A stretch of 64,000 nucleotides of DNA from Pseudovibrio exalbescens DSM 16456 (lineage in GTDB: Bacteria > Pseudomonadota > Alphaproteobacteria > Rhizobiales > Stappiaceae), in assembly GCF_000422785.1 (NCBI RefSeq), contig NZ_AUGS01000002.1, positions 186,001-250,000 on the forward strand, written 5' to 3'. This document shows, piece by piece, positions 2,128 to 16,025 of this stretch. The position numbers and the translations under genes are program-made. The notes under the pieces were generated by a model that was not told the DNA's origin, ran no database searches, and saw only the letters and a list, made by a program, of their open reading frames with translations. Each line of letters opens with the position of its first letter. Within the stretch, counting starts at the first letter, position 1.

Positions 2128-3099
2128 CTACCCTTCCACTTTGGTGCTGCGCTTGGGCAGCAAGCGGTCGATGTTTGTTGCGGTGATTGCCATCAGGATA
2201 ATGATGCCCACGATGGCCTTGAAGGCGAAGGGGGTTATGCCCAGCAGGTTCAGGCCGTTCTGGACGACGGCGAGTAGCATGACACCCAAGATGGCGCCAA
2301 TGACCGTGCCCCGTCCGCCGCCAAGGACAGCACCGCCCAGAACGACAGCAGCCAGAATTTCAAGTTCACGTCCATAAAGCGCATTGGGCACTACTTCCTG
2401 AACGATGTGCGCTTGCATCAGCCCGCCAATACCTGCGCACAGGCCGAGCCAGCCGTAGGCAAAGGCTTGAATGAAGGCGATGTTGATGCCGGATCTGCGC
2501 GCTGCTTCAGGATCGGAACCAAACCCAATGATCATGCGGCCAAACCCCATCCGGGTCATGAAAAACCACGTTACGAACGCCAGAAGCACCGCCACCACGA
2601 TGGGTAGATACAAACTGGCATCAGATAGTTCCAGAACCGGAATGCGGTAATAGAGCCAATCGGGAATGTTGTAGATCGACCGGCCCCGCGTGAAGTACAT
2701 CAAGAGGCCGAAAAACAGATTAAATGTGCCGATGGTGACGATGATTGAAACGATTCTGAATCGGTGAATGAGAAACGCGTTCACCAAGCCCAGCATCAAG
2801 CCGCAACCCGCCGCCAAAACCAATCCAATCGCCCAGTTTCCGCCTCCCATGGACAGAACCAGAGTGACCACAACGTATTGCACTACGGAGGCGGAGATCG
2901 AAAACGAGATGTCAATCCCACCGGAAACCAGCACGACGACCAGACCCACTGCAAAAATAATGTTCACGGCCTGATTGTTCAGAAGGTCAAACATGTTTTG
3001 AACTGTAAGGAAGCTGTCGGTCGTCAGGCTGAGTAGCAGACCCAGCACCACGATAACGGCGAGCAGGGATCCTTCGACGCTTTTTAGGCGGTTAAGCAT
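2128..3099 (-). CDS. Sugar ABC transporter permease (RbsC/BPD_transp_2 family), first of two
   Basis: This is a 323-residue membrane permease. VSGGIDISFSISASVVQ (about residues 58-74) is the family hallmark, and GFGSDPEAARRSGIN near 195 is the ATPase-coupling loop. I chose the ATG at 3099 rather than an upstream in-frame start at 3132: it begins MLNRLKSVEG, has GGAGGG eight bases upstream, and overlaps the ATPase stop codon by 8 bases, which is a usual coupled junction. It lies third in the operon after the binding protein and ATPase. It acts in the cytoplasmic membrane with the second permease. Family firm, substrate unknown. Confidence 0.9.
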   Translation of the reverse strand: MLNRLKSVEGSLLAVIVVLGLLLSLTTDSFLTVQNMFDLLNNQAVNIIFAVGLVVVLVSGGIDISFSISASVVQYVVVTLVLSMGGGNWAIGLVLAAGCGLMLGLVNAFLIHRFRIVSIIVTIGTFNLFFGLLMYFTRGRSIYNIPDWLYYRIPVLELSDASLYLPIVVAVLLAFVTWFFMTRMGFGRMIIGFGSDPEAARRSGINIAFIQAFAYGWLGLCAGIGGLMQAHIVQEVVPNALYGRELEILAAVVLGGAVLGGGRGTVIGAILGVMLLAVVQNGLNLLGITPFAFKAIVGIIILMAITATNIDRLLPKRSTKVEG

Positions 3100-4582
3100 T
3101 GATGATGCCCTCCAGCTCTTCTTCGCTGACATCCGTTGTCTTGAACGACCGGGAAATACGGCCTTCTTTCAAAACAAGCGTACGGTCCGTGTTGTGGTAG
3201 ATTTCGCTGGCTTCATCAGAGATGAGGATGATGGCCATGCCTTGATCTGCGAGCTGCCGGATAATCTCGAAAATCCCAGCCTTGGCGCCCACGTCCACGC
3301 CAACGGTCGGAGAGTCCAGCACAAGCACTTTCGGTTCGGTTGCCAACCATTTGGCAAGAACGATCCTTTGCTGGTTGCCGCCGGAAAGCGATGAAACCGG
3401 CAGAAGCGGATCGCTGACCTTGGTCTTGAGCTTGTCAATCCAGGTGTCGCAGAGCGCGCGAATGCTCTTGGGGCTGAGGAAAAAGCTTGGGTTTGATAGC
3501 TGTTTGAGAACAGGCGCTGCCGTGTTGTCCGCAATGGATTGCTTCTGGTCGAGGCCAAGGTTCAATCGGTCCTCGGAAACATAGGCGATGCCGGCGTCAA
3601 TCGCGTCGCGATTGCTTTTGAACTGCATTTCCTGCCCATCGAGCCGGATTTCTCCGCTATCAGGTTTGGTCATGCCGAAAATGGACAAGGCGATCTCGGT
3701 CCGTCCCGAGCCCATAAGACCCGTCAAACCAAGGATTTCTCCCTTGCGAAGGTCAAAACTGATGTCCTCGTATTCACCGCGCCGTGTCAGGTGCTTCAGG
3801 ACCAGAATGCGGTCCCCGTTGACCTCACCCGCACGCGGTGTCTGATCCAGCTCTTTGCCCGTCATCAGGGTCGAGAGCTTTTTTTGCGTCATTCCCTCCG
3901 TTGGAAAGGTCCCGACAAGTTTGCCGTCTCGCAGCACGGTGACGCGTTCGCACACATCCAACACCTCAGCAAGGCGGTGGCTGACGAAAACAATCGAAAT
4001 CCCCTGTGCGGACAAACGACGCACGATGGAAAGCAGCGTCTCTGTTTCTTTTTGTGTCAGCGATGCGGTCGGTTCATCCATGAAGATGATCCGCGCTTCT
4101 GCTTGAATTACACGACAGATGGCAACCAGTTGGCGTTTGGCGATGCTCAGATCACCAACGCGCGCGGTCGGATCCAGTTGGACGCCCAACTCGCCAATGG
4201 TTTTGCTGGCCTGCTCGATCTTTGCCTGACTGTCGATGCCCTTCAGGGGATGCGCAACGAAGCTATCGAAACAAATGTTTTCGGCAACCGTGAGATCTGG
4301 AAACAGTGCCAGATCCTGCCAAATCACGTGAATCCCAAGGCGTTTGGCGCTTGAGGGCGAGATTTGCCCAACGGACTGCTGGCCCGAAAACTCGAAGTGC
4401 GCGCCGGGCTCTGGCTGGTACACTCCATTGATGATCTTGATGAGGGTACTCTTGCCGCACCCGTTTTCGCCTGCAAGGCAATGGATCTCGCCCGGCTGCA
4501 GTTCAAATTCGACATTGTCGAGTGCGGTAAAACCACCGAACTTTTTGGTGATCGAAGTCGCACGAATTGCAAGTTCTGTCAT
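3092..4582 (-). CDS. Sugar ABC transporter ATP-binding protein, RbsA-like fused double NBD
   Basis: A 496-residue tandem ATPase of the ribose/autoinducer-2 importer class. NBD1 has Walker A GENGCGKST (38-46) and Walker B with FMDEPTAS, but its signature is the degenerate LSIAKRQ. NBD2 has a GLMGSGRT P-loop lacking the usual Lys, a canonical signature LSGGNQQ (from 399), and LVLDSPT at Walker B, where the catalytic Glu is replaced by Ser. The changed residues all fall on the same composite site, so one site is predicted to hydrolyse ATP and the other mainly to bind it. The ATG at 4582 (MTELAIRAT) is preferred over an earlier in-frame start because a GAGAAGG site precedes it and the longer N-terminus is not family-like. 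Confidence 0.92.
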   Translation of the reverse strand: MTELAIRATSITKKFGGFTALDNVEFELQPGEIHCLAGENGCGKSTLIKIINGVYQPEPGAHFEFSGQQSVGQISPSSAKRLGIHVIWQDLALFPDLTVAENICFDSFVAHPLKGIDSQAKIEQASKTIGELGVQLDPTARVGDLSIAKRQLVAICRVIQAEARIIFMDEPTASLTQKETETLLSIVRRLSAQGISIVFVSHRLAEVLDVCERVTVLRDGKLVGTFPTEGMTQKKLSTLMTGKELDQTPRAGEVNGDRILVLKHLTRRGEYEDISFDLRKGEILGLTGLMGSGRTEIALSIFGMTKPDSGEIRLDGQEMQFKSNRDAIDAGIAYVSEDRLNLGLDQKQSIADNTAAPVLKQLSNPSFFLSPKSIRALCDTWIDKLKTKVSDPLLPVSSLSGGNQQRIVLAKWLATEPKVLVLDSPTVGVDVGAKAGIFEIIRQLADQGMAIILISDEASEIYHNTDRTLVLKEGRISRSFKTTDVSEEELEGIINA

Positions 4583-4668
4583 GGTCGCCTTCTCGGCTGC
4601 GCACAACTGTCCCGTTGGCCGGGCTTTTACCCGTCCTGCAGTTGATCGTGAGAAGTGGATGGAAGCGC

Positions 4669-4707
4669 GTTCGGAGCCATCTGTCTTGGACAATGACGGC
4701 TCCGAAC
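4669..4707 (-). repeat. 10-bp perfect inverted repeat between binding-protein and ATPase genes
   Basis: GTTCGGAGCC at 4669-4678 and its exact complement at 4698-4707 are separated by 19 bases, in the gap between the binding-protein stop and the ATPase start. There is no T-run after it on the minus strand, so it is not a classical terminator. In sugar ABC operons such intercistronic hairpins commonly protect the upstream binding-protein mRNA, which is needed in excess over the membrane parts. That role is inferred here. Confidence 0.6.
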
Positions 4708-4734
4708 AACAGGGTCTTGGCCCTCGGGAGTGTT

Positions 4735-5721
4735 TTAGAGGCCTAGCTCAGACAGACCGTCAACGGAGTCCTTGCCCAGTTCAAGAGGCTTGTTGGCGTA
4801 GATGTTCTTGCCATCCACTTCAACAGTACCCAGCACCGGCACATCATCGCCGTCCTGCACCGTGTCGCCCATAACGAGCATGGTGCCCAGCTCGACAAAC
4901 GCCTTGCCCGCTTCAATTGGGCTCCACACGAAGCCGCCTGTCAGCGCATCTGAATGAACCAGACGACGGCCCTGGCCAGCGGAGAACAATCCGACAACGG
5001 CAACTTCGCCCTCAAGACCACGTTCCTGAACAGCGCGTGCTGCACCGATCGGCCCCTGGCTACCAAATGCCATTACGCCGGCAAAGTCTTCATTGGCGCG
5101 TAGCAGGTCAAGCGTCGTGGTACGGCTATCATCAACACTTTCAGCAACGCCAAAGCGGTCCGCTGCCTGCTTCATGTCCGGACACTTTTCTTCGAGCCGT
5201 GTCACGGCTGCATCTGCCCAGGCATTGTGTGCTGGAACCGTCAAACCACCAACGTAAACCGCATAACTGCCTTCACAACCGGTAGCCTTGGCGAACATGT
5301 CCGCGTGGGCTTTGCCGAAGTTTTCAGCAGACACGAGTTCAAAGTTGAAGTCCTTGTTCTGGCTTGCCTCGGATTCGTGGGTAATAACTTTAATGCCCGC
5401 ATCCATGGCACGCTTCAGAACGGGTTCCAGGACCTGTGCGTCGTTTGGTACAACGCCGATAACATCAACACCGCGCGCGATCAGATCTTCAATGGCGCGA
5501 ACCTGCAGGGCAGGATCTGCGCTGGTCGGACCAACCATGAAAGCGTCGACGCCGAGTTTGTCACCTGCTTCCTCGATACCTTGTTCCATGGCATTGAACC
5601 ACGGAATGCCACCGACCTTAACAACAACACCGATTGTTGGTGTGTCGTCGGCCAATGCTGGCGCGGCCAACATCGACACGGAAACAGCAGCGGCACCAAG
5701 TAGCTTAGAGATAGTCTTCAT
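4735..5721 (-). CDS. Sugar ABC transporter substrate-binding protein (LsrB/RbsB type)
   Basis: A 328-residue periplasmic binding protein. The first ~24 residues form a Sec signal peptide ending APALA. The mature part follows the Peripla_BP_4 pattern, with GIPWFNAMEQGIEEA near residue 38, VGPTSADPALQVRAIEDL and GVDVIGVVPND in the first lobe, and ITHESE near 113. This arrangement resembles the LsrB/rhamnose-type branch more than classic RbsB. It is the first gene of the minus-strand operon, separated from the ATPase by a 10-bp inverted repeat. The ATG at 5721 follows TGGGAGGA. The ligand cannot be read from sequence; the kinase downstream suggests a five-carbon sugar or polyol. Confidence 0.9.
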   Translation of the reverse strand: MKTISKLLGAAAVSVSMLAAPALADDTPTIGVVVKVGGIPWFNAMEQGIEEAGDKLGVDAFMVGPTSADPALQVRAIEDLIARGVDVIGVVPNDAQVLEPVLKRAMDAGIKVITHESEASQNKDFNFELVSAENFGKAHADMFAKATGCEGSYAVYVGGLTVPAHNAWADAAVTRLEEKCPDMKQAADRFGVAESVDDSRTTTLDLLRANEDFAGVMAFGSQGPIGAARAVQERGLEGEVAVVGLFSAGQGRRLVHSDALTGGFVWSPIEAGKAFVELGTMLVMGDTVQDGDDVPVLGTVEVDGKNIYANKPLELGKDSVDGLSELGL

Positions 5722-5759
5722 TGGGTCCTCCCAAACCGTTCAAAATCAGTACTTTACAC

Positions 5760-5779
5760 ATGCACCATCGAAGGTGCAT
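5760..5779. promoter_or_regulatory. Probable LacI-family operator
   Basis: A 20-bp near-perfect palindrome, ATGCACC-ATCGAA-GGTGCAT, with a central CG as in most LacI-family operators. It starts immediately downstream of the predicted -10 element of the minus-strand sugar operon and would cover the transcription start, a classic repression position. The divergent LacI-type gene at 5842 is the obvious candidate to bind it. Confidence 0.75.
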
Positions 5780-5806
5780 ATTGCGCTTGGCCGCATTTCT
5801 TGTCAA
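5778..5806 (-). promoter_or_regulatory. Sigma-70-type promoter of the sugar transport operon
   Basis: On the minus strand, TTGACA (5806-5801) and CAATAT (5783-5778) are separated by exactly 17 bases. The -35 is a full consensus match and the -10 differs at two positions. Transcription would begin near 5770, inside the palindromic operator, and run into the binding-protein gene starting at 5721. Confidence 0.7.
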
Positions 5807-5841
5807 GCATCAATCCAGAGAAATCGCGGAAGGGAGGTGAT

Positions 5842-6867
5842 ATGACTGACAGTCGAAGTGATAAACGTCCGACGATTTATGATTTGGCGAAGTTAACCAA
5901 CACCTCCGCCAGTACTGTTGGCGCTGTCCTCAACGGAACCTGGAAGAAGCGCCGCATAAGCCAGAAATTGGCAGACCAGATTCGCAAGGTTGCCCGCGAA
6001 CAAGGCTATTCACCCAACATGCAGGCCCGTGCTCTGCGCACCGAACGCTCCGGCATCATCGGCATGATTGTGCCCATGTATGACAACCGATACTTTGGCG
6101 CGCTAGCGCAGACCTTTGAACAGCGCGCCCGCGAGCGCGGTCTGTTTCCGATTGTTACCTGTACACGTCGTGACCCGGAACTGGAGATCGAAGCGGCACA
6201 GTCCATGCTGGCGTATCGTGTTGACCACATTGTCTGTACCGGCGCCACCAATCCGGACAAGATTGCCGAGATCTGCGGCGCACAGGGAGTAAGCACGATC
6301 AATGTGGATCTGCCGGGAACGAGCTCGCCTTCAATCATCTCCGACAATTACAGTGCGGCGCTGGAACTGACAGCGGACATTCTTGGTCGTCTCGGCTTTC
6401 CCTGTGCCGGGCGGGACAGTGATGTCGTGTTCATTGGTGGGCGAGCCCATGATCACAACACCTCGGAGCGTATTCGTGGTTTTCGCATGGCGCACGCGAA
6501 TGCAGGAGCGACCATAGCGCCGGAGTTCGTGCGACCGTGTGGCTACGCAGCTCATAAAGCGGAGCGAAGCTTTGATGCGTTTGTTGAAAAGGTAGGGCGC
6601 CTGCCCAGCGGGATTTTTGTCAACTCAACCATTTCTCTCGAGGGCATCGTCAATTGGTTCAAGCGCGCGGGTTTGGAAAAGCTGGAACAGGTTACGCTTG
6701 GCTGTTTCGACTGGGACCCCTATGCCGCGCTGTTGGGGCGCAACACCACAATGGTGCGCCAGAACGTACCAGCGATGATGGACATGCTTTTTGAAGTTCT
6801 GGAAGATCCGGACAAGCGCGGCTCGGGTGTGACACAGATAATGCCGGACATTATTCGTATGCCCTGA
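5842..6867 (+). CDS. LacI-family transcriptional regulator
   Basis: A 341-residue regulator with an N-terminal LacI helix-turn-helix (TIYDLAKLTNTSASTVGAVL, about residues 10-29), the hinge YSPNMQARALRTERSG near 60-75, and a periplasmic-binding-protein-like sensor domain (IIGMIVPMYDNRYFGAL onwards). The start at 5842 is preferred over an in-frame ATG at 5800 because GGGAGGTGAT lies just upstream and the earlier start would fall on the -35 element of the divergent promoter. It faces away from the sugar operon and probably represses it through the palindrome at 5760-5779 until a sugar or sugar phosphate binds. The effector is unknown. Confidence 0.92.
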   Translation: MTDSRSDKRPTIYDLAKLTNTSASTVGAVLNGTWKKRRISQKLADQIRKVAREQGYSPNMQARALRTERSGIIGMIVPMYDNRYFGALAQTFEQRARERGLFPIVTCTRRDPELEIEAAQSMLAYRVDHIVCTGATNPDKIAEICGAQGVSTINVDLPGTSSPSIISDNYSAALELTADILGRLGFPCAGRDSDVVFIGGRAHDHNTSERIRGFRMAHANAGATIAPEFVRPCGYAAHKAERSFDAFVEKVGRLPSGIFVNSTISLEGIVNWFKRAGLEKLEQVTLGCFDWDPYAALLGRNTTMVRQNVPAMMDMLFEVLEDPDKRGSGVTQIMPDIIRMP

Positions 6868-6880
6868 AGGCTGCTTCAAC

Positions 6881-6919
6881 AAAAAGCCCTTGTCGAAACG
6901 GGCGGTTTCGACAAGGGCT
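6881..6919 (-). terminator. Strong intrinsic terminator after the thiolase gene
   Basis: A perfect 15-bp stem (6885-6899 with 6905-6919) has a 5-base loop. Read on the minus strand it is followed by a short T-run (complement of 6881-6885). It ends the thiolase transcript and, lying just after the LacI-type gene on the other strand, probably stops convergent transcription too. Confidence 0.88.
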
Positions 6920-6970: not shown

Positions 6971-8176
6971 CTAGACTTTCTTCAAGACCACAGCAGTGCC
7001 CATGCCACCACCAATGCACAAAGAGGCGAGGCCATATGTGAGTTGGTTACGCATCATGCCGTAAAGCAGCGTTGTCACGATTCGTCCGCCAGAGGCGCCC
7101 AGTGGATGCCCGAGCGCAATGGCACCACCAGTTACGTTGGTCTTGTCCTCGAACCAGTCGAGGGTCACATCGTGCTCCTGAGTCAGGCCGTGCATGACAG
7201 CCAGCGCTTGCGCTGCAAACGCCTCGTTCAGTTCAAGGCGCTCCATGTCCGCAAGACGCATGTTGGCCCGCTGAAGAGCCTGAGCAATGGCTGGCACTGG
7301 GCCGTAGCCCATAATGGCCGGATCCACACCGCCTTGGCCATAGCTGACCAGTTCGGCGAGCGGGGTCAGACCATGTTTTTCGACGGCCGCCTCTGAAGCA
7401 AGAACAAGTGCTACGCCGCCATCGTTGATCCCGGAGGCGTTGCCCGCGGTCACGCTGCCATCCTTTTTAAAGGCAGGCTTCAACTTGGCCAAGCCTTCCA
7501 TGGATGCATCAGCGCGAGGATATTCGTCCCGATCGAATACAGAAATGGCCTTGCGAGTTTTGACCTCGATCGGCGCGATTTCATCAGCGAAGACACCAGC
7601 TTCAACTGCGCTACTGGCTCGTTTCTGGCTTTGCAGCGCAAATTCGTCCTGATCATCGCGGGTCAAGCCGAACTTGTCTACCAGGTTCTCCGCGGTCATG
7701 CCCATGTGGTAGTTGTTGAACACATCTGTCAGGCCATCCTTGATCATGGTGTCTGAAAGACCCTGATTGCCCATCTTGTGGCCCATGCGGCTCTTACCCG
7801 GCAAAGCAAAGGGGGCCTGAGACATGTTCTCCATACCCGCCGCAACGACGACGTCCGCATCTCCTGCTTTGATATGGGCGGCAGCATCCATCATGGTTTT
7901 CATGCCACTGCCGCAAATCATGTTAACCGTATAAGCGGGTACATGATCCGGGATTCCGGCGTAGATTGCCGCCTGTCGACCAGGGCCCATACCCTGATCC
8001 GCACCCAAAACGTTGCCGACAATGACCTCGTCCACCTTGTCGGCTGACAGGTTGCTTTGGGAAAGAGCAGCTGCAATCGCTGTAGCGCCCAGCTTGGGTG
8101 CTGGCACTGATGCCAGCGATCCCATGAAGCTGCCAATTGCGGTGCGCTTGGCTCCTACAATGAAAATCTTTGTCAT
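6971..8176 (-). CDS. phaA: Acetyl-CoA acetyltransferase (thiolase)
   Basis: A 401-residue thiolase that would condense two acetyl-CoA to acetoacetyl-CoA, or the reverse. The nucleophilic cysteine is in NMICGSGMK (near residue 88), the active-site histidine in GHPLGASGGR, and the second catalytic cysteine in the C-terminal CIGGGMGTA. Length is normal. The ATG at 8176 is preferred over a GTG three bases upstream because AAGGGG is then 6 bases away. It lies 10 bases after the reductase gene at 8187-8921 and is co-transcribed with it. With the reductase, CoA-transferase, hydratase and enoyl reductase of the same locus it supplies the first step of a butyryl-CoA route. Symbol by analogy with PHB-type operons; no PHA synthase is visible. 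Confidence 0.93.
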   Translation of the reverse strand: MTKIFIVGAKRTAIGSFMGSLASVPAPKLGATAIAAALSQSNLSADKVDEVIVGNVLGADQGMGPGRQAAIYAGIPDHVPAYTVNMICGSGMKTMMDAAAHIKAGDADVVVAAGMENMSQAPFALPGKSRMGHKMGNQGLSDTMIKDGLTDVFNNYHMGMTAENLVDKFGLTRDDQDEFALQSQKRASSAVEAGVFADEIAPIEVKTRKAISVFDRDEYPRADASMEGLAKLKPAFKKDGSVTAGNASGINDGGVALVLASEAAVEKHGLTPLAELVSYGQGGVDPAIMGYGPVPAIAQALQRANMRLADMERLELNEAFAAQALAVMHGLTQEHDVTLDWFEDKTNVTGGAIALGHPLGASGGRIVTTLLYGMMRNQLTYGLASLCIGGGMGTAVVLKKV

Positions 8177-8186
8177 CACGATCCCC

Positions 8187-8921
8187 TTAAATCACCAGGC
8201 CGCCGTCAATTTTCAATGTCTGCCCGGTAATGAAGCGGGAGCGATCACTTGCCAGAAACAGAACGCCTTCGGCAATGTCCTCTGCCTCGCCCATGCGACC
8301 AAGCGGGGTTTTGCTTTTCATGTGGTCGATGACCTTTTCCGGAAGGTCTTTTGTCATTGGGGTCTTGATGAAACCGGGTGCCACGCAGTTGGCGCGGACC
8401 TGCGCACCTTTGCGAGAAAACTCTTTGGCCCAACCTTTGGTCATGGCAATCACACCGCCCTTGGTGGCAGCATAGTTGCTCTGACCAATATTGCCGTCGG
8501 TACCGACAACGGATGACATGGTGATCACGGAGCCGGCCCCGCTTTCCATCATCAGCGGTGCAATGGCTTGCGTCATGTTGAACACGCCCTTCAGGTTCAC
8601 GTCCACCACGATATCCCAATCGGATTCACTCATCCGGTCGAGCAGATTGTCGCGGGTAACGCCGGCATTGTTCACCAATACGTCGACGCGACCATGATCG
8701 GCTTTCACCTGCTCCACAAAAGCGACAACGGCATCACGGTCGCAAACGTTCAGCGCGACAGGTTGCACGTTCTGGAACCGGTCACGATAGTCCTGCATGG
8801 CGTCTTCGTTCATGTCGCAGGCATACACCTGCGCTGCATGCTGATCGGCAAAGGTTTCGACAATGCAGCGACCAATGCCCTGAGCGCCGCCGGTTACGAT
8901 ACAAATCTTGTCCTGGAGCAT
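8187..8921 (-). CDS. phaB: SDR-family 3-ketoacyl-CoA reductase (acetoacetyl-CoA reductase/FabG-like)
   Basis: A 244-residue short-chain dehydrogenase. It has the Rossmann motif TGGAQGIGR (residues 9-17), NNAG, and the catalytic Ser-Tyr-Lys set in SSVVGTDGNIGQSNYAATKGG. GVTRDNLL is shared by FabG and PhaB proteins, so sequence alone does not separate ACP from CoA substrates. Pairing with a thiolase favours acetoacetyl-CoA to (R)-3-hydroxybutyryl-CoA. The ATG at 8921 has AGAGGTGA upstream; an in-frame start at 9113 would add 64 residues unlike the family and invade the shared promoter region. It is the first gene of the minus-strand arm, divergent from the LysR gene. Confidence 0.9.
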   Translation of the reverse strand: MLQDKICIVTGGAQGIGRCIVETFADQHAAQVYACDMNEDAMQDYRDRFQNVQPVALNVCDRDAVVAFVEQVKADHGRVDVLVNNAGVTRDNLLDRMSESDWDIVVDVNLKGVFNMTQAIAPLMMESGAGSVITMSSVVGTDGNIGQSNYAATKGGVIAMTKGWAKEFSRKGAQVRANCVAPGFIKTPMTKDLPEKVIDHMKSKTPLGRMGEAEDIAEGVLFLASDRSRFITGQTLKIDGGLVI

Positions 8922-9219
8922 AGTGATATCACCTCTTCTGAATTCCCGAGCAATTCCTGATCGCTCTGAAGTTGTTGGTGATATTCTTGACATGAGCGGC
9001 CGCGAATGATTACAGGCACCTTCGCAAAACAAAAATGAAGAAATGGGATGGCCGAGATGACCCATGAAATTCCACGTTTTAGTCTCTTTGAAAAACGATA
9101 TGCCCTGCGACAATTCCCGAACTGTACGAAGCTGCTAATTCCACTAATCTTTCCAAAGGGGTGAGTGTACCCGTAAAGGATGCAAAAGAGCCAAAAAAAC
9201 TAAAGGATTGCGAGGTCCC
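8922..9219. promoter_or_regulatory. Divergent regulatory region between reductase and LysR genes, with five AATTCC boxes
   Basis: This 298-base intergenic region has no convincing gene. The hexamer AATTCC occurs five times in the same orientation, at 8941, 8952, 9068, 9112 and 9137, where about 0.1 copy is expected by chance. Two copies are 11 bases apart. AATTCCCGA is repeated exactly at 8941-8949 and 9112-9120. These are candidate binding sites for the adjacent LysR-type regulator. No near-consensus promoter stands out. Confidence 0.5.
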
Positions 9220-10155
9220 ATGCTCGATAAGATCGTCTATTTTCTGCACGTCGTGCGCACTGGATCTTTTTCCGATGCCGCCCGCCTCTACGGCATTTCG
9301 GCCAGCGCCGGCAGTCGCTGGATTATCGAGCTTGAGGAGAAAATGGGTGTGAGCTTGCTCAAGCGCTCAACGCGGAAGGTTGTTGCAACCGAAGCCGGGC
9401 AACGCCTCTATGAGCGTTTCAGTGATGTCAACGCCGAGATTGAAGATATCTTCACCGAGATCACAAACTTTGGCAAGGAAGAGCGCGGCACGATCTGTGT
9501 CGCTGCCACGCCTTTGTTTGCGCGCTACTTCCTGGCCCAAATCGTGGGGGAGTATCTGCTGGATCATCCCCACGTGGATTTTCGCGTGCTCCAAACTGCG
9601 TATGAAGTGGATATGGTTGAAGAGGTAGATTTCTTCATTCGCGCCAATGCGACCTATCAAGGCTTTCAGGAGAAGGACAGCTTGCTCGTCAAGCGTTCGC
9701 TTCTGAAGTATCCGCTGGTTGCATGTTGTTCCCCAGAGTATGCCGAGCGGTACGGGGTACCCACGACGCCTGAGGATTTGCGAAAGCATAACTGCCTGTT
9801 TGCCCGTACCTTGGTCGGCGGCAACAAGTGGGTATTCGAATACCACGGTGATTGCACGGCGGTGGAAATTGCGCGGACTGTCGAGGTGGATGACAGCGAG
9901 ATCATCAAGTCGATTGCCCTGACCGGTGGGGGTATAGCCTATCTGCCGATTACGTTGCTGCGCGAAGAGTTGGCTGATGGCCGTCTGATCTCGATCCTCA
10001 GCGATTACATCGATGCCGAGTTCGAGTTCAACTTGTTCTTTCGCCGTCGACGGCAGATGCCACTCATGTGCACCAACTTCAAGAATTACCTTATCCGGCG
10101 TACCCGTGAACTGGGCCACAACGAGGCAGGCGAGCAGATACTGCTCACGTGCTGA
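9220..10155 (+). CDS. LysR-family transcriptional regulator
   Basis: A 311-residue regulator with a winged helix-turn-helix in the first 60 residues (FLHVVRTGSFSDAARLYGISASAGSR split over two helices) and a LysR substrate-binding domain with VVATEAG at the linker and GGGIAYLP near residue 240. The ATG at 9220 (MLDKIVYF) is preferred to a TTG at 9208 because it gives the normal LysR N-terminus and has GAGG upstream. It sits between the two arms of the CoA cluster and is the likely controller of both, responding to a small acid or CoA metabolite. The effector is unknown. Confidence 0.92.
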   Translation: MLDKIVYFLHVVRTGSFSDAARLYGISASAGSRWIIELEEKMGVSLLKRSTRKVVATEAGQRLYERFSDVNAEIEDIFTEITNFGKEERGTICVAATPLFARYFLAQIVGEYLLDHPHVDFRVLQTAYEVDMVEEVDFFIRANATYQGFQEKDSLLVKRSLLKYPLVACCSPEYAERYGVPTTPEDLRKHNCLFARTLVGGNKWVFEYHGDCTAVEIARTVEVDDSEIIKSIALTGGGIAYLPITLLREELADGRLISILSDYIDAEFEFNLFFRRRRQMPLMCTNFKNYLIRRTRELGHNEAGEQILLTC

Positions 10156-10291
10156 TTGTCCCGTTTGTGCAATTGTCTTTTAGGTGATTGCCTGTTTTTC
10201 TTGGTTCTGAACCCTTCTATCCTTCATGCAGGAAGCAAAAAGATGGTGCGAGTTTATTGTGACTTGCATCTACATAATGAAGGGTCACGGG

Positions 10292-11878
10292 ATGCAAGTA
10301 AAAATCTTGACTCCAGAGGGAGCGGCTGCGCTTATTGAAGATGGCGACAAGGTAATACTTGGCGGTTTTATTGGTGCGGTTGTGCCAGAAGCAATTGAGC
10401 GCGCCATTAAGGACCGGTTCTTTGAAACCGGTCACCCCAGAAATCTGGAGCTTTATTTCACGGCAGGGCAGGGCGATGGTCAGGATCGTGCCAATAATCA
10501 CCTCTCCCACAAGGGGTTGGTGAAGATGGCGCTGGGCGGGCATTGGGGATTGATCCCCCGCCTTCAGGATCTGGCCAATCAGAATGAAATTGAAGCCTAT
10601 AACTTCCCGCAAGGGGTTATCGCGCAGTTGATCCGTGACAGCGCGGCAGGCAAGCCCGGTACGCTTACTCACGTCGGTCTAGGCACTTTTGTGGATCCGC
10701 GCATCGATGGCGGCAAAATCAATGAGGCCACCAAGGACGACCGAGTGAAGGTCGTCGAGATGGAAGGACGGGAATACCTGTTCTACAAGCGCATTGATGC
10801 CAATGTGGCGTTGCTGCGCGGTACTACTGCCGATCGCAACGGCAACGTCACCATGGAAGATGAGTGTCTGTTTCTTGAAAATCTTGCTGCTGCGCAGCTG
10901 GTTTCCAATATGGGCGGCAAGGTTATCGTTCAGGTGAAGAGGATCGTTGACGCTGGCGAGTTGGATCCGCAACAGGTCCGTATCCCAGGCATTCACGTGG
11001 ATGCTGTCGTTCTCGCCGACGATGACGCACATATGCAGACATTCGCCGAAGCCATGAACCCGGCTTATTGTGGTCGGGGTACGCGGCTGAGGCGCAACTC
11101 CGGACCGCGGCCTCTGGATGCCAAAAAAATTATCGCACGCCGCGCTGCGATAGAGTTGCGGGAAGGATCCGTGCTCAACTACGGCATCGGCGTTCCGGAA
11201 GTCATTGCCGAAGTCACGGATGAAGAAGGTGTAACGGACAAGATGATTGCAACGGTTGAGCCCGGAGCAATCGGTGGTACCCCGGCAGGTGGGTTGAGTT
11301 TCGGCGCATCCGCTTTCCCGGAGGCCATCATCACGCAGGATCAGATGTTTGACTTCTATGATGGCGGCGGCGTGGATCAGGCTTTCCTCGGGTTGGCGGA
11401 GTGCGACCGGAATGGTGACCTGAATGTCTCTCGTTTCGGAACGAAAATCGCCGGGTGTGGCGGCTTTATCAACATCACGCAGAATGCCAAGGAAGTGTAT
11501 TTCTGCGGCACGTTCACGGCGGGCGGTTTGAAAGTCGATGCAGGTGAGGGGCGCTTGTCCATCGTACAGGAAGGACGCATCAAGAAGTTCCTCGCCAAGG
11601 TGCAGCAAGTGACTTTTTCTGCCGATCAGGCCCGTTTGAACCGCAAGCCGGTACTCTACATCACGGAGCGTGCGGTTTTCCGGTTGATTGATGAGACACT
11701 TGAATTGATCGAGATCGCGCCGGGCGTTGATCTGGAGCGGGATGTTTTAAGCCAGATGGCGTTCCAGCCCCGTGTCAGTGCAGATCTGAAGTTGATGGAT
11801 CCACGGCTGTTTGTCGATAAGCCGCTTGGTCTGACCCTCAAACCGTTGACCGAGGAAAAGGAAGTGGCTCTGGCGTAA
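10292..11878 (+). CDS. Family I acyl-CoA transferase (propionate/acetate CoA-transferase-like)
   Basis: A 528-residue fused alpha-beta CoA-transferase of the YdiF/propionate CoA-transferase type. The N-terminal half has KVILGGFIGAVVPEAIE (the GG-F oxyanion region). The C-terminal half has NYGIGVPE and ATVEPGAIGG, where the Glu before PG is the expected covalent catalytic residue. It would move CoA between acetate and another short acyl group such as butyryl-, propionyl- or acetoacetyl-CoA. The ATG at 10292 follows GAAGGG by 7 bases; an earlier in-frame ATG at 10226 lacks a ribosome site. It heads the plus-strand arm, followed closely by the hydratase and enoyl reductase genes. In a butyrate pathway it would be the terminal, acid-releasing step; acyl activation is the alternative. 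Confidence 0.88.
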   Translation: MQVKILTPEGAAALIEDGDKVILGGFIGAVVPEAIERAIKDRFFETGHPRNLELYFTAGQGDGQDRANNHLSHKGLVKMALGGHWGLIPRLQDLANQNEIEAYNFPQGVIAQLIRDSAAGKPGTLTHVGLGTFVDPRIDGGKINEATKDDRVKVVEMEGREYLFYKRIDANVALLRGTTADRNGNVTMEDECLFLENLAAAQLVSNMGGKVIVQVKRIVDAGELDPQQVRIPGIHVDAVVLADDDAHMQTFAEAMNPAYCGRGTRLRRNSGPRPLDAKKIIARRAAIELREGSVLNYGIGVPEVIAEVTDEEGVTDKMIATVEPGAIGGTPAGGLSFGASAFPEAIITQDQMFDFYDGGGVDQAFLGLAECDRNGDLNVSRFGTKIAGCGGFINITQNAKEVYFCGTFTAGGLKVDAGEGRLSIVQEGRIKKFLAKVQQVTFSADQARLNRKPVLYITERAVFRLIDETLELIEIAPGVDLERDVLSQMAFQPRVSADLKLMDPRLFVDKPLGLTLKPLTEEKEVALA

Positions 11879-11921
11879 ACCAGAGCCCCACGGTCATTGC
11901 TCTCTTACATGGAGGTCCGTC

Positions 11922-12341
11922 ATGAGCTACACGCTGGATCAGCTCCACATCGGGCAGAAAGCCTGTTTTGAAAAGACCATTTGCGAAGCCGATATTCAGG
12001 CATTCTGCGGTATCAGCGGTGATGTCAATCCGGTACACGTCAGTGATACGGCCGCCAAGGCCAGCGTTTTTGGCAAGCGAGTGGCCCACGGCATTCTGGT
12101 GTCTGGTTTGACATCCACGGTGCTGGGCATGCAACTGCCGGGACCGGGAACCATTTATCTTGGCCAGGAAATGCGCTTCAAAGCGCCGGTTTACATCGGC
12201 GACACCATTCGGGCGGAAGTTGAGGTTATTGAAATCAATAGAGAAAAAAAGATAGCCAAGCTGCGCACCACCAGTTTCAACCAAAATGACAAGGCAGTCA
12301 TTGAGGGCATCGCGACTGTTCGCCCTCCTGAACAGGCCTGA
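11922..12341 (+). CDS. phaJ: (R)-specific enoyl-CoA hydratase, MaoC/PhaJ type
   Basis: A 139-residue single hot-dog domain protein. FCGISGDVNPVHVSDTAA (about residues 28-45) carries the catalytic Asp and His of the MaoC/PhaJ hydratase motif, followed by VAHGILVSGL. It interconverts (R)-3-hydroxyacyl-CoA and trans-2-enoyl-CoA. GGAGG lies upstream of the ATG. It is 43 bases after the CoA-transferase and 47 bases before the enoyl reductase. Its R-stereospecificity matches the product expected of a PhaB-type reductase, so the cluster forms a consistent R-route to crotonyl-CoA. Phosphate acetyltransferase-linked MaoC proteins share this fold, but length and context favour PhaJ. Confidence 0.9.
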   Translation: MSYTLDQLHIGQKACFEKTICEADIQAFCGISGDVNPVHVSDTAAKASVFGKRVAHGILVSGLTSTVLGMQLPGPGTIYLGQEMRFKAPVYIGDTIRAEVEVIEINREKKIAKLRTTSFNQNDKAVIEGIATVRPPEQA

Positions 12342-12388
12342 CGGCCTGTTCATCGTCACATGCACAAAGCCCCAACAAAGAGTTTCTC

Positions 12389-13591
12389 ATGATTATCAAA
12401 CCTGTAATCAAAGGGCAGGTGGCAAAGACCTGCCATCCAATCGGCTGTAAAAAGGCGGTTGAAGAACAAATCGACTATGTTCGCCAAGCTGATCCGATAA
12501 AGAATGGACCAAAGAAGGTGCTCGTTTTGGGTGCATCTTCTGGGTTTGGTCTGGCCTCACGTATTTCATTGGCGTTTGGTGGTGCCAAGGCCGACACTAT
12601 TGGCGTTGCTTTCGAGCGTGGGCCGTCCGAGGCCAGCGTGGGGAGCGCCGGGTGGTACAACGCCTTGTACTTCCGCGAAGCGGCTGAGCAAGAGGGTTTG
12701 ATCGCCAAGAATTTTATCGGCGATGCATTTTCCGCGGAAATGCGCCAGCAGATTATCGACTACATCAAGACTGAGTTTGGCGGCACCGTGGACTTGGTGG
12801 TCTATTCACTCGCCACGGGCGTGCGTCCGGATCCGGAAACGGGGCAGAAAATCCGCTCCTCACTCAAGACCGTTGGCGAGCCGCTTACCGGATATACTGT
12901 CAATTTGGAAAAGGACTGCTTCGATGAGGGCGTTCTTGAAGCAGCCGATCCGCAGGAAATCGAAGATACTGTCCGCGTAATGGGCGGTGAAGACTGGGCC
13001 GAGTGGATCAAGGTGCTTTCGGATGCCGGAGTGCTCGCCGAAGGCTGCCAGACGGTTGCTTACTCCTATATCGGGTCGCAAATCACCCGCCGGATCTATC
13101 ACGAAGGCACGCTTGGGCATGCCAAGGAGCACCTGCACAAAACCGCTGATGTGCTTGATGAACAATTGCGCAAGATAGGCGGGCAGGCTCATGTGGCCGT
13201 ATGCAAGGCATTGGTGACCAAGGCCAGTGTTTTCATCCCGGCGTTCTCACCCTACATCCTCGCCCTTTTCAAGGTCATGAAGGAATTGGGTTTGCATGAA
13301 GGCTGCATTGAACAGATGCAGCGATTGTTTGCGCAGCGTCTCTATACCGAAACAGGTGAGGTGCCAGTGGACGACCAGCGCCTGGTGCGGGTTGACGACT
13401 GGGAGTTGCGCCCGGATGTACAAGAGAAAGTGCAAGTCATTCTCAACGAGATGGGGCCGGACAATTTCCCGGAATTGGGGGATTATGAGGGCTACAAGAA
13501 TGACTTCCTGAAATTAAATGGTTTTGGCTTTACTGACGTCAACTATGACGAAGAAGTCTCTATTGAAAACTTCGCGTCGCGTCAGCCTTAA
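12389..13591 (+). CDS. fabV: trans-2-enoyl-CoA/ACP reductase, FabV/Ter family
   Basis: A 400-residue flavin-independent enoyl reductase. It has the extended N-terminal segment MIIKPVIKGQVAKTCHP of the family, the Rossmann motif VLGASSGFGLASR (about residues 45-57), and the FabV/Ter catalytic stretch with Tyr of AYSYIG and Lys of GTLGHAK. It reduces crotonyl-CoA or enoyl-ACP with NAD(P)H. FabV (fatty acid synthesis) and Ter (butyryl-CoA formation) cannot be told apart here by motif. Position directly after a PhaJ-type hydratase and with thiolase, reductase and CoA-transferase nearby supports Ter. The reaction is essentially one-way, so it argues for synthesis rather than breakdown. Confidence 0.93.
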   Translation: MIIKPVIKGQVAKTCHPIGCKKAVEEQIDYVRQADPIKNGPKKVLVLGASSGFGLASRISLAFGGAKADTIGVAFERGPSEASVGSAGWYNALYFREAAEQEGLIAKNFIGDAFSAEMRQQIIDYIKTEFGGTVDLVVYSLATGVRPDPETGQKIRSSLKTVGEPLTGYTVNLEKDCFDEGVLEAADPQEIEDTVRVMGGEDWAEWIKVLSDAGVLAEGCQTVAYSYIGSQITRRIYHEGTLGHAKEHLHKTADVLDEQLRKIGGQAHVAVCKALVTKASVFIPAFSPYILALFKVMKELGLHEGCIEQMQRLFAQRLYTETGEVPVDDQRLVRVDDWELRPDVQEKVQVILNEMGPDNFPELGDYEGYKNDFLKLNGFGFTDVNYDEEVSIENFASRQP

Positions 13592-13795
13592 TCCAAGTTA
13601 CCATACGTAACAATTTGGCTCGGGCGCAGTTTTCCGGGCCATTTTTATTTGTTTAAGCATAAATACCTATATCTGGATTACTGTACTGTACTCAATACAC
13701 CTTTCCATAATCGGGAAAATGACTTCAGAAAAAACGGTATATGCTTCGTCTTACTCCTTCGATTTAACTCAAAAGGGACAAGGGAGGTTCCCGTC

Positions 13796-14998
13796 ATGAT
13801 CCGAAAGCACATAATCGAGTTTGTGATCTTTATGACTTACGCGCTCTTTGCGATGTCATGGGTTGCAGGCAACATGATGACCACGGATATTATGGCTTAC
13901 TTTCAGGTGGAGGGCGTGACCGCAGCTACCTGGATGACCAACGCCATTACCATCGCCAAGATCATTGGCAACCTGATTGCGGCTTGGTTCCTGGTCAAAC
14001 TCGGCCCCAAGAAGGCCTTTGCGTTTTCCTCGCTGCTGATTGTAGCAGGTGCGCTCGGCGCCTTCGCCACCAACTATCCGCTCTACGTGTTCTCTCGCCT
14101 CATCATGGGCTTCGGCGGTGCATTTGTTATTGTCTACTTTAACCCAATTGTAGTTAATTACTTTACTCCCGAAGAACGCCCGATTGTGAATGGCTTGAAT
14201 GCTGCTGCATTTAATGCAGGTAACCTTTTGGCGTTGCTGCTTACGGGAACCTTGATGGCGCATCTCGGAACCTGGCAGAACGTTGTTCTGGGAATTTCCT
14301 TGGCCAGCGGTGCGTTGTTGGTGATCTGGTGGCTTATTTCAGAAGACTTTGAACTATCCGGCCCGAAAAATGCCGCTGGTGAAGTCCAGAAGGCCTACAC
14401 CATGAAAGACGGCATCAAGGACCCGGTAAACTGGCTGTTGCCATTTGCCTACTCCGGACTGCTGTTCTGCTACATCGCGGTGTTCTCCTTGTTCCCGCTG
14501 GTGCCTAACTTCGCCGTCGCTTCTCAGTACCTGGCTTCAATCATGATTGCCGCTGGCATGGTTGGCACGCTCGTTGGCATCATCGTGGCCAAGCGGTATC
14601 CACTGCGCCTGCCTGTCATGCGTTGGTGCGGTCTGGCGATGACCTGTTTTGCAGCACTGATGATCGTTACCTCCAGCCCGATCATCGCCACCGCTTCAGC
14701 ATTCCTTGCAGGTTTCTTCCTGTTCGTTCCGATGACCTGTCTGGTCACGCTGCCTCAGGAACTGCCAGGCATGACACCAGGCCGTATCACAGTGATCTTC
14801 GCGATGTTCTGGTCCATTTCCTACGTCGTCGAAACCGTTCTGATGTATGTGGCAGGCGTTATGGCTGATACCACTGGTAATGTGTACTACGCCGCGGCGT
14901 TCGCAGTGGCTTGCTCCATCACCATGTTCGTTGCAACGTTCTTGCTGCCTGAAACGGGCAAGAAGGAACCGGAAGCAGCCGCGCCGGCAAAAGCATAA
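13796..14998 (+). CDS. Major facilitator superfamily transporter
   Basis: A 400-residue protein with about 12 hydrophobic segments and a central hydrophilic loop (about residues 185-210), as in MFS carriers. LVKLGPKKAF near residue 65 resembles the loop 2-3 motif. The ATG at 13796 has GGGAGG eight bases upstream; the in-frame region before it is not transporter-like. It is 204 bases after the enoyl reductase and 11 bases before the esterase, so it probably belongs to the same locus. Substrate cannot be assigned. Export of a short-chain acid or uptake of an ester or acid substrate are both reasonable. Confidence 0.85.
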   Translation: MIRKHIIEFVIFMTYALFAMSWVAGNMMTTDIMAYFQVEGVTAATWMTNAITIAKIIGNLIAAWFLVKLGPKKAFAFSSLLIVAGALGAFATNYPLYVFSRLIMGFGGAFVIVYFNPIVVNYFTPEERPIVNGLNAAAFNAGNLLALLLTGTLMAHLGTWQNVVLGISLASGALLVIWWLISEDFELSGPKNAAGEVQKAYTMKDGIKDPVNWLLPFAYSGLLFCYIAVFSLFPLVPNFAVASQYLASIMIAAGMVGTLVGIIVAKRYPLRLPVMRWCGLAMTCFAALMIVTSSPIIATASAFLAGFFLFVPMTCLVTLPQELPGMTPGRITVIFAMFWSISYVVETVLMYVAGVMADTTGNVYYAAAFAVACSITMFVATFLLPETGKKEPEAAAPAKA

Positions 14999-15009
14999 GG
15001 GGTGAAAAA

Positions 15010-15945
15010 ATGCGTGAAGTCAGTCCAAAACTCGTTCCGTTTCTCGAGCAGTTCAATGAAACCGTTGCCAAGCTGGTTGCCAGTGGTTTCAAGCCCAACG
15101 CAACAAACGCACGTGAAGGTCTTGCCAATCTGACAAAGACCTACACCACCGAAAGCCCAGCGGTTGCTCTGATTCAGGACGACCTGATCTATGCCGAAGG
15201 CTACAATGTGCCTGTGCGCATCTTCAATCCGGCGCCAGATGAAGAGCTACCGGTTCTGATTTACTATCACGGCGGTGGTCACATGGCAGGTAGTGTCACG
15301 GTGTATGATCCGATCTATCGAAAGATGGCGGTGAATACAAAACACATCGTGGTGGCCCCTGAATATCGGTTGGCTCCGGAAAATCCATATCCCGCTGGCG
15401 AGGAAGACGCTTATGCCACCTTGCGTGGGGTTTGGGAAACGCTGGACCGACGAGGTATGAAGTACAAGCGCGAATTGTCTATTGCTGGTGATTCCGGTGG
15501 CGGCGCGCTGTGTACCGCAGTGGCTGCGCGGGCGCAGTTTGATGCCGGTGTTACGATCAAAAAACAGGCGCTGGTATATCCATCCGTGGACTACACCATG
15601 AGCACAAAGGCCATTGAGGAAAATGCTGTTGGCTACCTTTTGCACTCTGCGAAGTGCGCTTGGTATTTCGACAATTACTTCAAGAAGAGCGAGTGTCGTA
15701 AGGCGGCGTCGCCGCTATTTAAGGACTTTACAGCTCATCTGCCTGAAACCTTTGTGGTAACTGCTGAATTTTGCCCGCTGCGCGATGAGGGCAAGCTGTA
15801 CTACGAAAAGGTCAAGGAGGCTGGCGTGCGAGCCGAGTTGTTGAACATGGATGACATGATCCACACGTTCATGAACCTTGAAGACCTCGTCAAAGAAGAA
15901 TGTCAGCAAGTTTATGCGCGTGTGAACGAGTTTCTGAATAGCTGA
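15010..15945 (+). CDS. Alpha/beta hydrolase, HSL-family esterase with altered triad position
   Basis: A 311-residue esterase of the hormone-sensitive-lipase (family IV) type. HGGGH at 87-91 is the oxyanion motif, GDSGGG holds the nucleophile Ser162, and the histidine is H285 in DMIHTF. The family's catalytic Asp normally sits in a DPLRDEG motif; here the sequence reads FCPLRDEG, so residue 255 is Cys (codon TGC at 15772-15774). The Glu two before or the Asp four after might substitute, or activity may be weak. It starts 11 bases after the MFS gene with AAGGGG upstream and ends the plus-strand arm before a clear terminator. A role in hydrolysing an imported ester is inference. Confidence 0.87.
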   Translation: MREVSPKLVPFLEQFNETVAKLVASGFKPNATNAREGLANLTKTYTTESPAVALIQDDLIYAEGYNVPVRIFNPAPDEELPVLIYYHGGGHMAGSVTVYDPIYRKMAVNTKHIVVAPEYRLAPENPYPAGEEDAYATLRGVWETLDRRGMKYKRELSIAGDSGGGALCTAVAARAQFDAGVTIKKQALVYPSVDYTMSTKAIEENAVGYLLHSAKCAWYFDNYFKKSECRKAASPLFKDFTAHLPETFVVTAEFCPLRDEGKLYYEKVKEAGVRAELLNMDDMIHTFMNLEDLVKEECQQVYARVNEFLNS

Positions 15946-15987: not shown

Positions 15988-16025
15988 GGCCTTTCCGCGC
16001 TTTCGAGTGCGGGAAGGCCTTTTTT
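15988..16025 (+). terminator. Intrinsic terminator after the esterase gene
   Basis: An 11-bp stem with one G-T wobble (15988-15998 with 16009-16019) is followed directly by six T (16020-16025). It closes the plus-strand arm of the CoA cluster. The rest of 15946-16204 shows no gene; a GGTTCGA string near 16088 is not part of a complete tRNA. Confidence 0.88.

Follow-up and report, generated by a model that had tools for sequence, protein, structure and literature searches.

The 64,000-nucleotide stretch of Pseudovibrio exalbescens DSM 16456 analyzed here (the window; bases 186001-250000 of contig 2 in a draft genome of 4.16 Mb and 36 contigs) carries a divergent eight-gene cluster around a LysR-type regulator, for which we propose a role in the use of (R)-3-hydroxybutyrate (3HB). 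The regulator (9220-10155, plus strand; HTH_1 and LysR_substrate domains) is preceded on the minus strand by two genes. One encodes a FabG/PhaB-like short-chain dehydrogenase/reductase (SDR) that is proposed to be an NAD-dependent (R)-3-hydroxybutyryl-CoA dehydrogenase (8187-8921; FabG subfamily model NF009466), and the other a thiolase of the type that interconverts acetoacetyl-CoA plus CoA and two acetyl-CoA (6971-8176; 469 bits to TIGR01930 against a cut-off of 240.6, with Thiolase_N/C domains). On the plus strand follow a YdiF/FadX-type CoA-transferase with the EPGAIGG glutamate motif (10292-11878; E 1.2e-143 to YdiF, PDB 2ahu), a MaoC-like (R)-specific enoyl-CoA hydratase (11922-12341; PF01575, 85.6 bits) and an NADH-dependent enoyl reductase of the FabV/Ter type that falls in a clade of cluster enzymes (12389-13591; 514 bits to NF043048, cut-off 400). 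The last two genes encode a major facilitator superfamily (MFS) transporter (13796-14998, plus strand; PF07690, 111 bits) and an HSL-type (family IV) esterase (15010-15945, plus strand; PF07859, 178 bits, with carboxylesterase relatives in the PDB). The transporter is a candidate importer of 3HB or its oligomers, or an acid exchanger, and none of the models scored pointed to its substrate; the esterase is a putative 3HB-oligomer hydrolase. Gene starts, including that of the transporter, were adjusted by eye against homologues. Family models confirmed all eight genes of the initial annotation with their coordinates and families, and upheld its view that the enzymes belong to R-route families with a flavin-independent enoyl reductase.

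The cluster is one unit enclosed by two terminator-like hairpins, which agrees with the earlier description of a single locus. The left hairpin (6885-6919, minus strand) has 15 pairs followed by four T, and the right one (15988-16019, plus strand) has 14 pairs followed by six T. Since the region contains 17 terminator-like sites where 10.8 are expected in shuffled sequence, the end hairpins are notable by their stem length and place alone. A third, shorter hairpin lies between the FabV and MFS genes.

A 22-bp operator-like element, TCCCNTTNNTGCAATTNTNTTT, was found upstream of both arms, in the same orientation relative to each arm. The copy before the CoA-transferase gene (10159-10180, plus strand) has no mismatch and is the first-ranking site in the window at 37.8 bits, and that before the SDR-thiolase arm (9027-9048, minus strand) has two mismatches. 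The element was first noticed by eye in six loci and was then tested by matrices built from one side only. The main test matrix drew solely on sites that precede the CoA-transferase in the other loci; with it, the SDR-side site came second within its locus in 17 of 19 cases and third and fourth in the remaining two. In the window it ranked second over 64 kb and both strands, narrowly (10.1 versus 8.4 bits), and it came only fifth when the matrix was derived exclusively from SDR-side sites of gammaproteobacteria. A scan of the complete 4.16-Mb genome allowing up to two mismatches gave exactly two matches, one before each arm, and the backward control gave none. Since the matches in this genome stand only before the two arms, the arms are probably co-regulated, a point on which the initial annotation had made its scheme depend. 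We infer from its position that the LysR-type regulator binds the shared element. When the two intergenic gaps were searched for a LysR box in the form of an inverted repeat, they had no dyad in common. Across 14 genomes scanned in the same way, there were 1 to 6 matches per genome and 0 to 2 in the control. A weak third site lies before the MFS gene (13695-13720, minus strand; fourth-ranking in the window at 7.2 bits). Third sites of 12-23 bits precede the MFS or esterase gene in 12 of 16 gammaproteobacterial loci, and a third site above 9 bits was present in none of the six alphaproteobacterial loci. The element also precedes both of the methyl-accepting chemotaxis protein genes that border the cluster in two genomes of another family of the order (L024:15009-17082 and L026:959-3031; 20 and 14 bits), where chemotaxis toward the substrate of the cluster is possible.

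The enoyl reductase passes the FabV family model, and it scored alike on the structures of Ter (4eue, 392 bits) and FabV (5xi0, 419 bits). The genome also encodes FabI (509 bits against a cut-off of 446), adjoining FabB, and 21 of 24 gammaproteobacterial genomes searched contain a separate FabV, 48-53% identical to that of the window, mostly alongside a closer copy. Because FabI stands beside FabB and the gammaproteobacteria have a FabV of their own, the cluster enzyme is unlikely to be the enoyl-acyl carrier protein reductase of the cell. In a tree of 44 FabV rows, the cluster FabVs and other paralogues form one clade of 32 with support of 100/100, outside which fall ten housekeeping copies of the 48-53% type together with two sequences from further families within the order; with FabI present and the tree clade separate, we rejected the cluster FabV as the essential enoyl-acyl carrier protein reductase. 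FabV of any kind is scarce in the order, being encoded by 13 of 297 genomes in 4 of 123 genera. A second paralogue, 63% identical, is encoded on contig 3 of the same genome (L021:907-10339) near genes that, by their sequence starts only, resemble those of a cytochrome bd oxidase with its ABC exporter; this neighborhood is a further hint that these FabVs may act when oxygen is low.

The SDR scored 240 against the FabG subfamily model NF009466, above the cut-off of 222, and remained below that of TIGR01830 (287 versus 298). An aspartate after the second strand is the usual sign of NAD use in SDR enzymes. This residue, in the motif ACDxN (ACDMN in the window), was invariant in 19 aligned rows, and NAD dependence is proposed for the cluster SDR. 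The CoA-transferase shares with Escherichia coli YdiF and Staphylococcus FadX a homology over nearly the full length and the catalytic glutamate motif, which was unchanged in 28 aligned rows; the features of a YdiF-type family I CoA-transferase were thus found in it. In contrast to FadX, it remained below the cut-off of the FadX model (389.5 versus 750 bits), and its context points to 3HB and not to long fatty acids. Since a 66% identical relative lies in an apparent branched-chain acyl-CoA degradation operon, assigned by eye (L163:803-11226), this CoA-transferase family may serve more than one pathway.

All eight genes are present in P. exalbescens and P. flavus, which according to the available text of a 2025 report have been renamed Nesiotobacter exalbescens and Astericibacter flavus (PMC12080928). 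In Pseudovibrio in the sense of GTDB, the CoA-transferase was found at an identity of at least 73% in 4 of 16 genomes, including the present one. Three genomes of another family of the order carry all eight genes in the same order at 66-80% identity, and whole or partial clusters were found in Vibrio, Photobacterium, Enterovibrio and Shewanella. The genome search proposed with the initial annotation showed that the gene set recurs more than chance would explain, and 13 of 32 tabulated loci are complete. By gene, LysR was present in 28 of these loci, the esterase in 25, FabV in 24, the thiolase in 22 and MaoC in 21, where absence is defined by E <= 1e-20 and identity thresholds and in some cases reflects contig ends. 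The table comprises 19 of 24 named loci, 7 of 8 Vibrionaceae stretches, and three genomes each from the other family and, additionally, from Shewanella; it excludes L051-L055 (Photobacterium, with CoA-transferase, LysR and GntP only), L167 (CoA-transferase alone), short 4-kb loci and FabV loci without the cluster (L027-L034). Among 296 Vibrionaceae genomes, 54 had a CoA-transferase match at E <= 1e-150, the best match being 70-77% identical in 12 of them and 60-67% in the others. The module is conserved and real, and because its presence is patchy and its likeness high across two classes, it was most likely transferred between Alpha- and Gammaproteobacteria. Transposase-like open reading frames, recognized by eye, lie between the MFS and esterase genes of one Vibrionaceae cluster (L165:13251-14401). 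In one of the four Pseudovibrio genomes with the CoA-transferase (G308/G333; L056, L062) the cluster looks decayed, its genes being in frameshifted pieces, and no match to SDR or LysR was found on that contig. Next to the cluster in the window lie a sugar-type ABC transporter with a RhaS-like binding protein and a LacI regulator (3092-6867); the same genes, 79-91% identical, occur in P. exalbescens (L036:844-5585) and are absent from the P. flavus locus.

The neighbors of the cluster in Shewanella point to its substrate. Beside the cluster of Shewanella canadensis lies a gene for PhaZ7 (553 bits, with the cut-off at 450; 355.7 bits to PDB 2vtv), a family of extracellular depolymerases acting on native short-chain polyhydroxyalkanoate (PHA). 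PhaZ7 was found in 6 of 117 Shewanella genomes and the cluster CoA-transferase also in 6, and these are the same six. The chance of this co-occurrence would be 3.2e-10 for independent genomes, which these are not, and a single event plus linkage may explain several of the six cases. The gap between the PhaZ7 and CoA-transferase genes is about 2 to 10 kb, and a porin accompanies PhaZ7 in all six, as do MaoC and FabV. The placement of the PhaZ7-porin pair varies: it is on the thiolase side in G319 and G345, on the esterase side in G321 and G327, whereas in G387 and G445 it separates LysR from the CoA-transferase and is collinear with the latter. AckA and Pta are encoded inside the cluster in four of the six. 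In G327 the CoA-transferase reads as two pieces and PhaZ7 lacks a start. In G387 the next gene encodes a hydrolase that scored 313.8 bits, against a cut-off of 300, as a member of the intracellular short-chain-length (scl) PHA depolymerase family. After it comes an alpha/beta hydrolase, by eye an exported one, and judging from first residues, similar pairs are present in G345, G445 and G321. The Vibrionaceae genome G671 combines the cluster with a porin and a similar hydrolase pair, the first member of which scored 297.3 bits, narrowly below the cut-off; PhaZ7 was not found in the 19.9 kb read, the rest of that genome not having been searched.

Reduced versions of the cluster were also informative. 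Several vibrios carry LysR, CoA-transferase, SDR and thiolase alone, and MaoC and FabV are both missing from 8 of the 32 loci, of which 7 keep the SDR and 3 the thiolase. Since the reduced loci keep the CoA-transferase and mostly the SDR without MaoC and FabV, the constant part is acid activation and 3-hydroxyacyl-CoA oxidation, and MaoC-FabV looks like a reductive branch added to it. A GntP-family permease (PF02447, 31-32 bits against 22.5) lies near CoA-transferase and LysR in Photobacterium (L037:6039-7487; L049:7317-8690). Two reduced vibrio loci, each read over 20 kb (L160:2508-7781; L161:11505-16848), adjoin a TRAP transporter, for which one binding protein was scored, and also carry an apparent pair of sensor kinase and LuxR-type response regulator.

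PhaZ7, the porin, the esterase and the oxidative-only versions together suggest 3HB as the input. The initial annotation had instead assigned to the cluster the de novo synthesis of butyrate from two acetyl-CoA, which would serve as an NADH sink while other substrates are fermented. Each catalytic step for this is present, the FabV paralogue is a dedicated one, and FabV-type reduction is nearly irreversible; these points speak for it. Pseudovibrio strains do ferment: in the available text of one study, the main products of glucose fermentation by FO-BEG1 and JE062 are formate, lactate, acetate and ethanol (PMC3806328). Its main text does not name butyrate, although these two strains may or may not carry the cluster. 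Synthesis from acetyl-CoA also leaves the PhaZ7, porin and esterase neighbors and the eight loci without MaoC and FabV unexplained, and we regard it as quite unlikely to be the main role. Thus, the butyrate-synthesis scheme probably has the wrong input, butyrate being one product of a dismutation. NADH disposal, which it also included, is a likely role, and its alternative, the use of imported esters through esterase and CoA-transferase, comes nearer to our reading than does de novo synthesis.

We therefore consider, with a probability of roughly 60%, that the cluster is a LysR-controlled module for the use of external (R)-3HB, its oligomers or fragments of poly(3-hydroxybutyrate) (PHB) via dismutation. 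Judged by family, a single organism encodes an enzyme for each step: activation, oxidation, thiolysis, dehydration and enoyl reduction. In the proposed scheme, the esterase and the MFS transporter would supply 3HB, and the CoA-transferase would activate it with CoA from acetyl-CoA or butyryl-CoA. The NAD-dependent SDR would oxidize 3HB-CoA to acetoacetyl-CoA, which the thiolase would cleave to two acetyl-CoA. When oxygen is short, MaoC would turn another 3HB-CoA into crotonyl-CoA, FabV would reduce this to butyryl-CoA using the NADH from the SDR, and the CoA-transferase would release butyrate for excretion while activating the next 3HB. The net reaction would be 2 3HB -> 2 acetate + butyrate. 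By our own bookkeeping, butyryl-CoA and one acetyl-CoA would activate two 3HB and one acetyl-CoA would be left, which could yield one ATP per two 3HB where Pta and AckA act; neither is encoded in the cluster of the window, and the remaining genome was not searched for them. A wider proposal is that a module moved between Alpha- and Gammaproteobacteria enables facultatively anaerobic marine bacteria to ferment external PHB or 3HB, with acetate and butyrate as products, through an R-only, flavin-free and NADH-closed dismutation. A single CoA-transferase would serve both to activate the substrate and to release the products, under one LysR with an operator before each arm. This proposal is tentative and somewhat short of even odds.

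The same input is shared by a rather unlikely alternative, in which 3HB or PHB fragments are catabolized aerobically and MaoC and FabV serve only to recover crotonate or enoyl by-products or to channel butyryl-CoA into lipid or PHA precursors. The CoA-transferase-SDR-thiolase core that stands alone in several vibrios would suit it, as would the two PhaC of the own genome. However, MaoC and FabV accompany PhaZ7 in all six Shewanella, and Pta/AckA in four of those six clusters point to acid excretion; moreover, no acyl-CoA dehydrogenase is encoded in the cluster, the genome beyond it not having been searched. The two PhaC also qualify the initial statement that no PHA synthase or phasin is present, which holds for the eight genes but not for the genome, where two PhaC_N matches exceeded the cut-off. 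A storage role of the cluster was rejected, since neither PhaC nor phasin is among the eight genes and both PhaC are on other contigs. When the stretches around them were compared by tblastn, the only match was of LysR type (30%). The search for a phasin covered the eight cluster genes.

Very improbable, in our estimate, is a function in the turnover of 3HB as an osmolyte or piezolyte, with the cluster making or clearing intracellular 3HB and its oligomers. The hosts are marine, and the accessible part of one report describes accumulation of 3HB and its oligomers in Photobacterium profundum under pressure and salt (PMC1224877). This species has a relative of the CoA-transferase (61%) and, elsewhere in its genome, a cluster-type FabV (67%). 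However, its transferase locus lacks MaoC and FabV, these enzymes have no evident task in the cycling of an osmolyte, and an extracellular-family depolymerase and a porin work outside the cytoplasm.

Several points weigh against 3HB dismutation. Gene content, conservation, the linkage to PhaZ7 in Shewanella, the shared element and the FabI/FabV paralogy were observed directly; the substrates, the directions, the binding of LysR and the dependence on oxygen are inferred. The SDR remained below the cut-off of the acetoacetyl-CoA reductase model TIGR01829 (231 versus 302), and thiolase and SDR are reversible and run both ways. The reductase is labeled FabV by NCBIfam, and its Ter and FabV structure scores are alike. 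The silence on butyrate in the text on FO-BEG1 and JE062 counts here as well. The element matched both arms within two mismatches in 7 of the 14 genomes and a single arm in the other 7, and matrix scans revealed no clear copy upstream of PhaZ7. Of 43 genome entries searched for PhaZ7, 3 had it, all of them Shewanella, and PF10503 depolymerases exceeded the cut-off in 2 of 46 (one Shewanella, and one Photobacterium, weakly at 26 bits), so that this latter type was rejected as a general partner; both totals include three Pseudovibrio genomes twice. Since the searched genomes outside Shewanella yielded no PhaZ7 and a single weak PF10503 match, vibrios and Pseudovibrio would use 3HB or oligomers freed by others, or else their substrate would differ.

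The proposed net reaction is the same as that of 3HB (PHB) fermentation by Ilyobacter polytropus and I. delafieldii, as far as the available texts describe it: the former converts 2 3HB to 2 acetate and butyrate with -59 kJ/mol (PMC10096456), and acetate and butyrate are also given as products of Ilyobacter elsewhere (PMC3035301). The present cluster differs from Ilyobacter in having, by family, an all-R set (SDR and MaoC), a flavin-independent FabV and one LysR unit, and in occurring in marine Proteobacteria. In Ilyobacter, the pathway reportedly proceeds through CoA esters and splits into an oxidizing and a reducing branch (Janssen and Schink 1993). The C4 acyl-CoA carbon skeletons of the clostridial butyrate pathway (Thl, Hbd, Crt, Bcd-Etf) are identical to those of the cluster, whereas the cluster has the other hydroxyacyl stereochemistry by family, lacks Bcd-Etf and likely runs from 3HB inward. 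Classical PHB use, in the part of the source available, employs PhaZ, an oligomer hydrolase, Bdh, AACS or ScoAB, and thiolase (PMC7830162). The cluster resembles it in the PhaZ7 and other hydrolases of Shewanella and in the thiolase as the last step; in contrast, 3HB would receive CoA from the CoA-transferase before the SDR oxidizes it, and the cluster includes MaoC and FabV as a reductive branch. No description of this gene set was found in the open PMC library.

Bacteria store PHB, which is at the same time a biodegradable plastic, and the anaerobic or microaerobic use of its monomer is known physiologically mainly from strict anaerobes. If 3HB dismutation is the true role, the cluster would provide a genetic basis for anaerobic or microaerobic PHB-monomer use in marine Proteobacteria. 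The fate of PHB and the release of butyrate in oxygen-poor sediments, particles and animal hosts would then be testable with a defined gene set. It is also a caution that gene content alone can mislead the reading of such clusters toward butyrate synthesis or storage.

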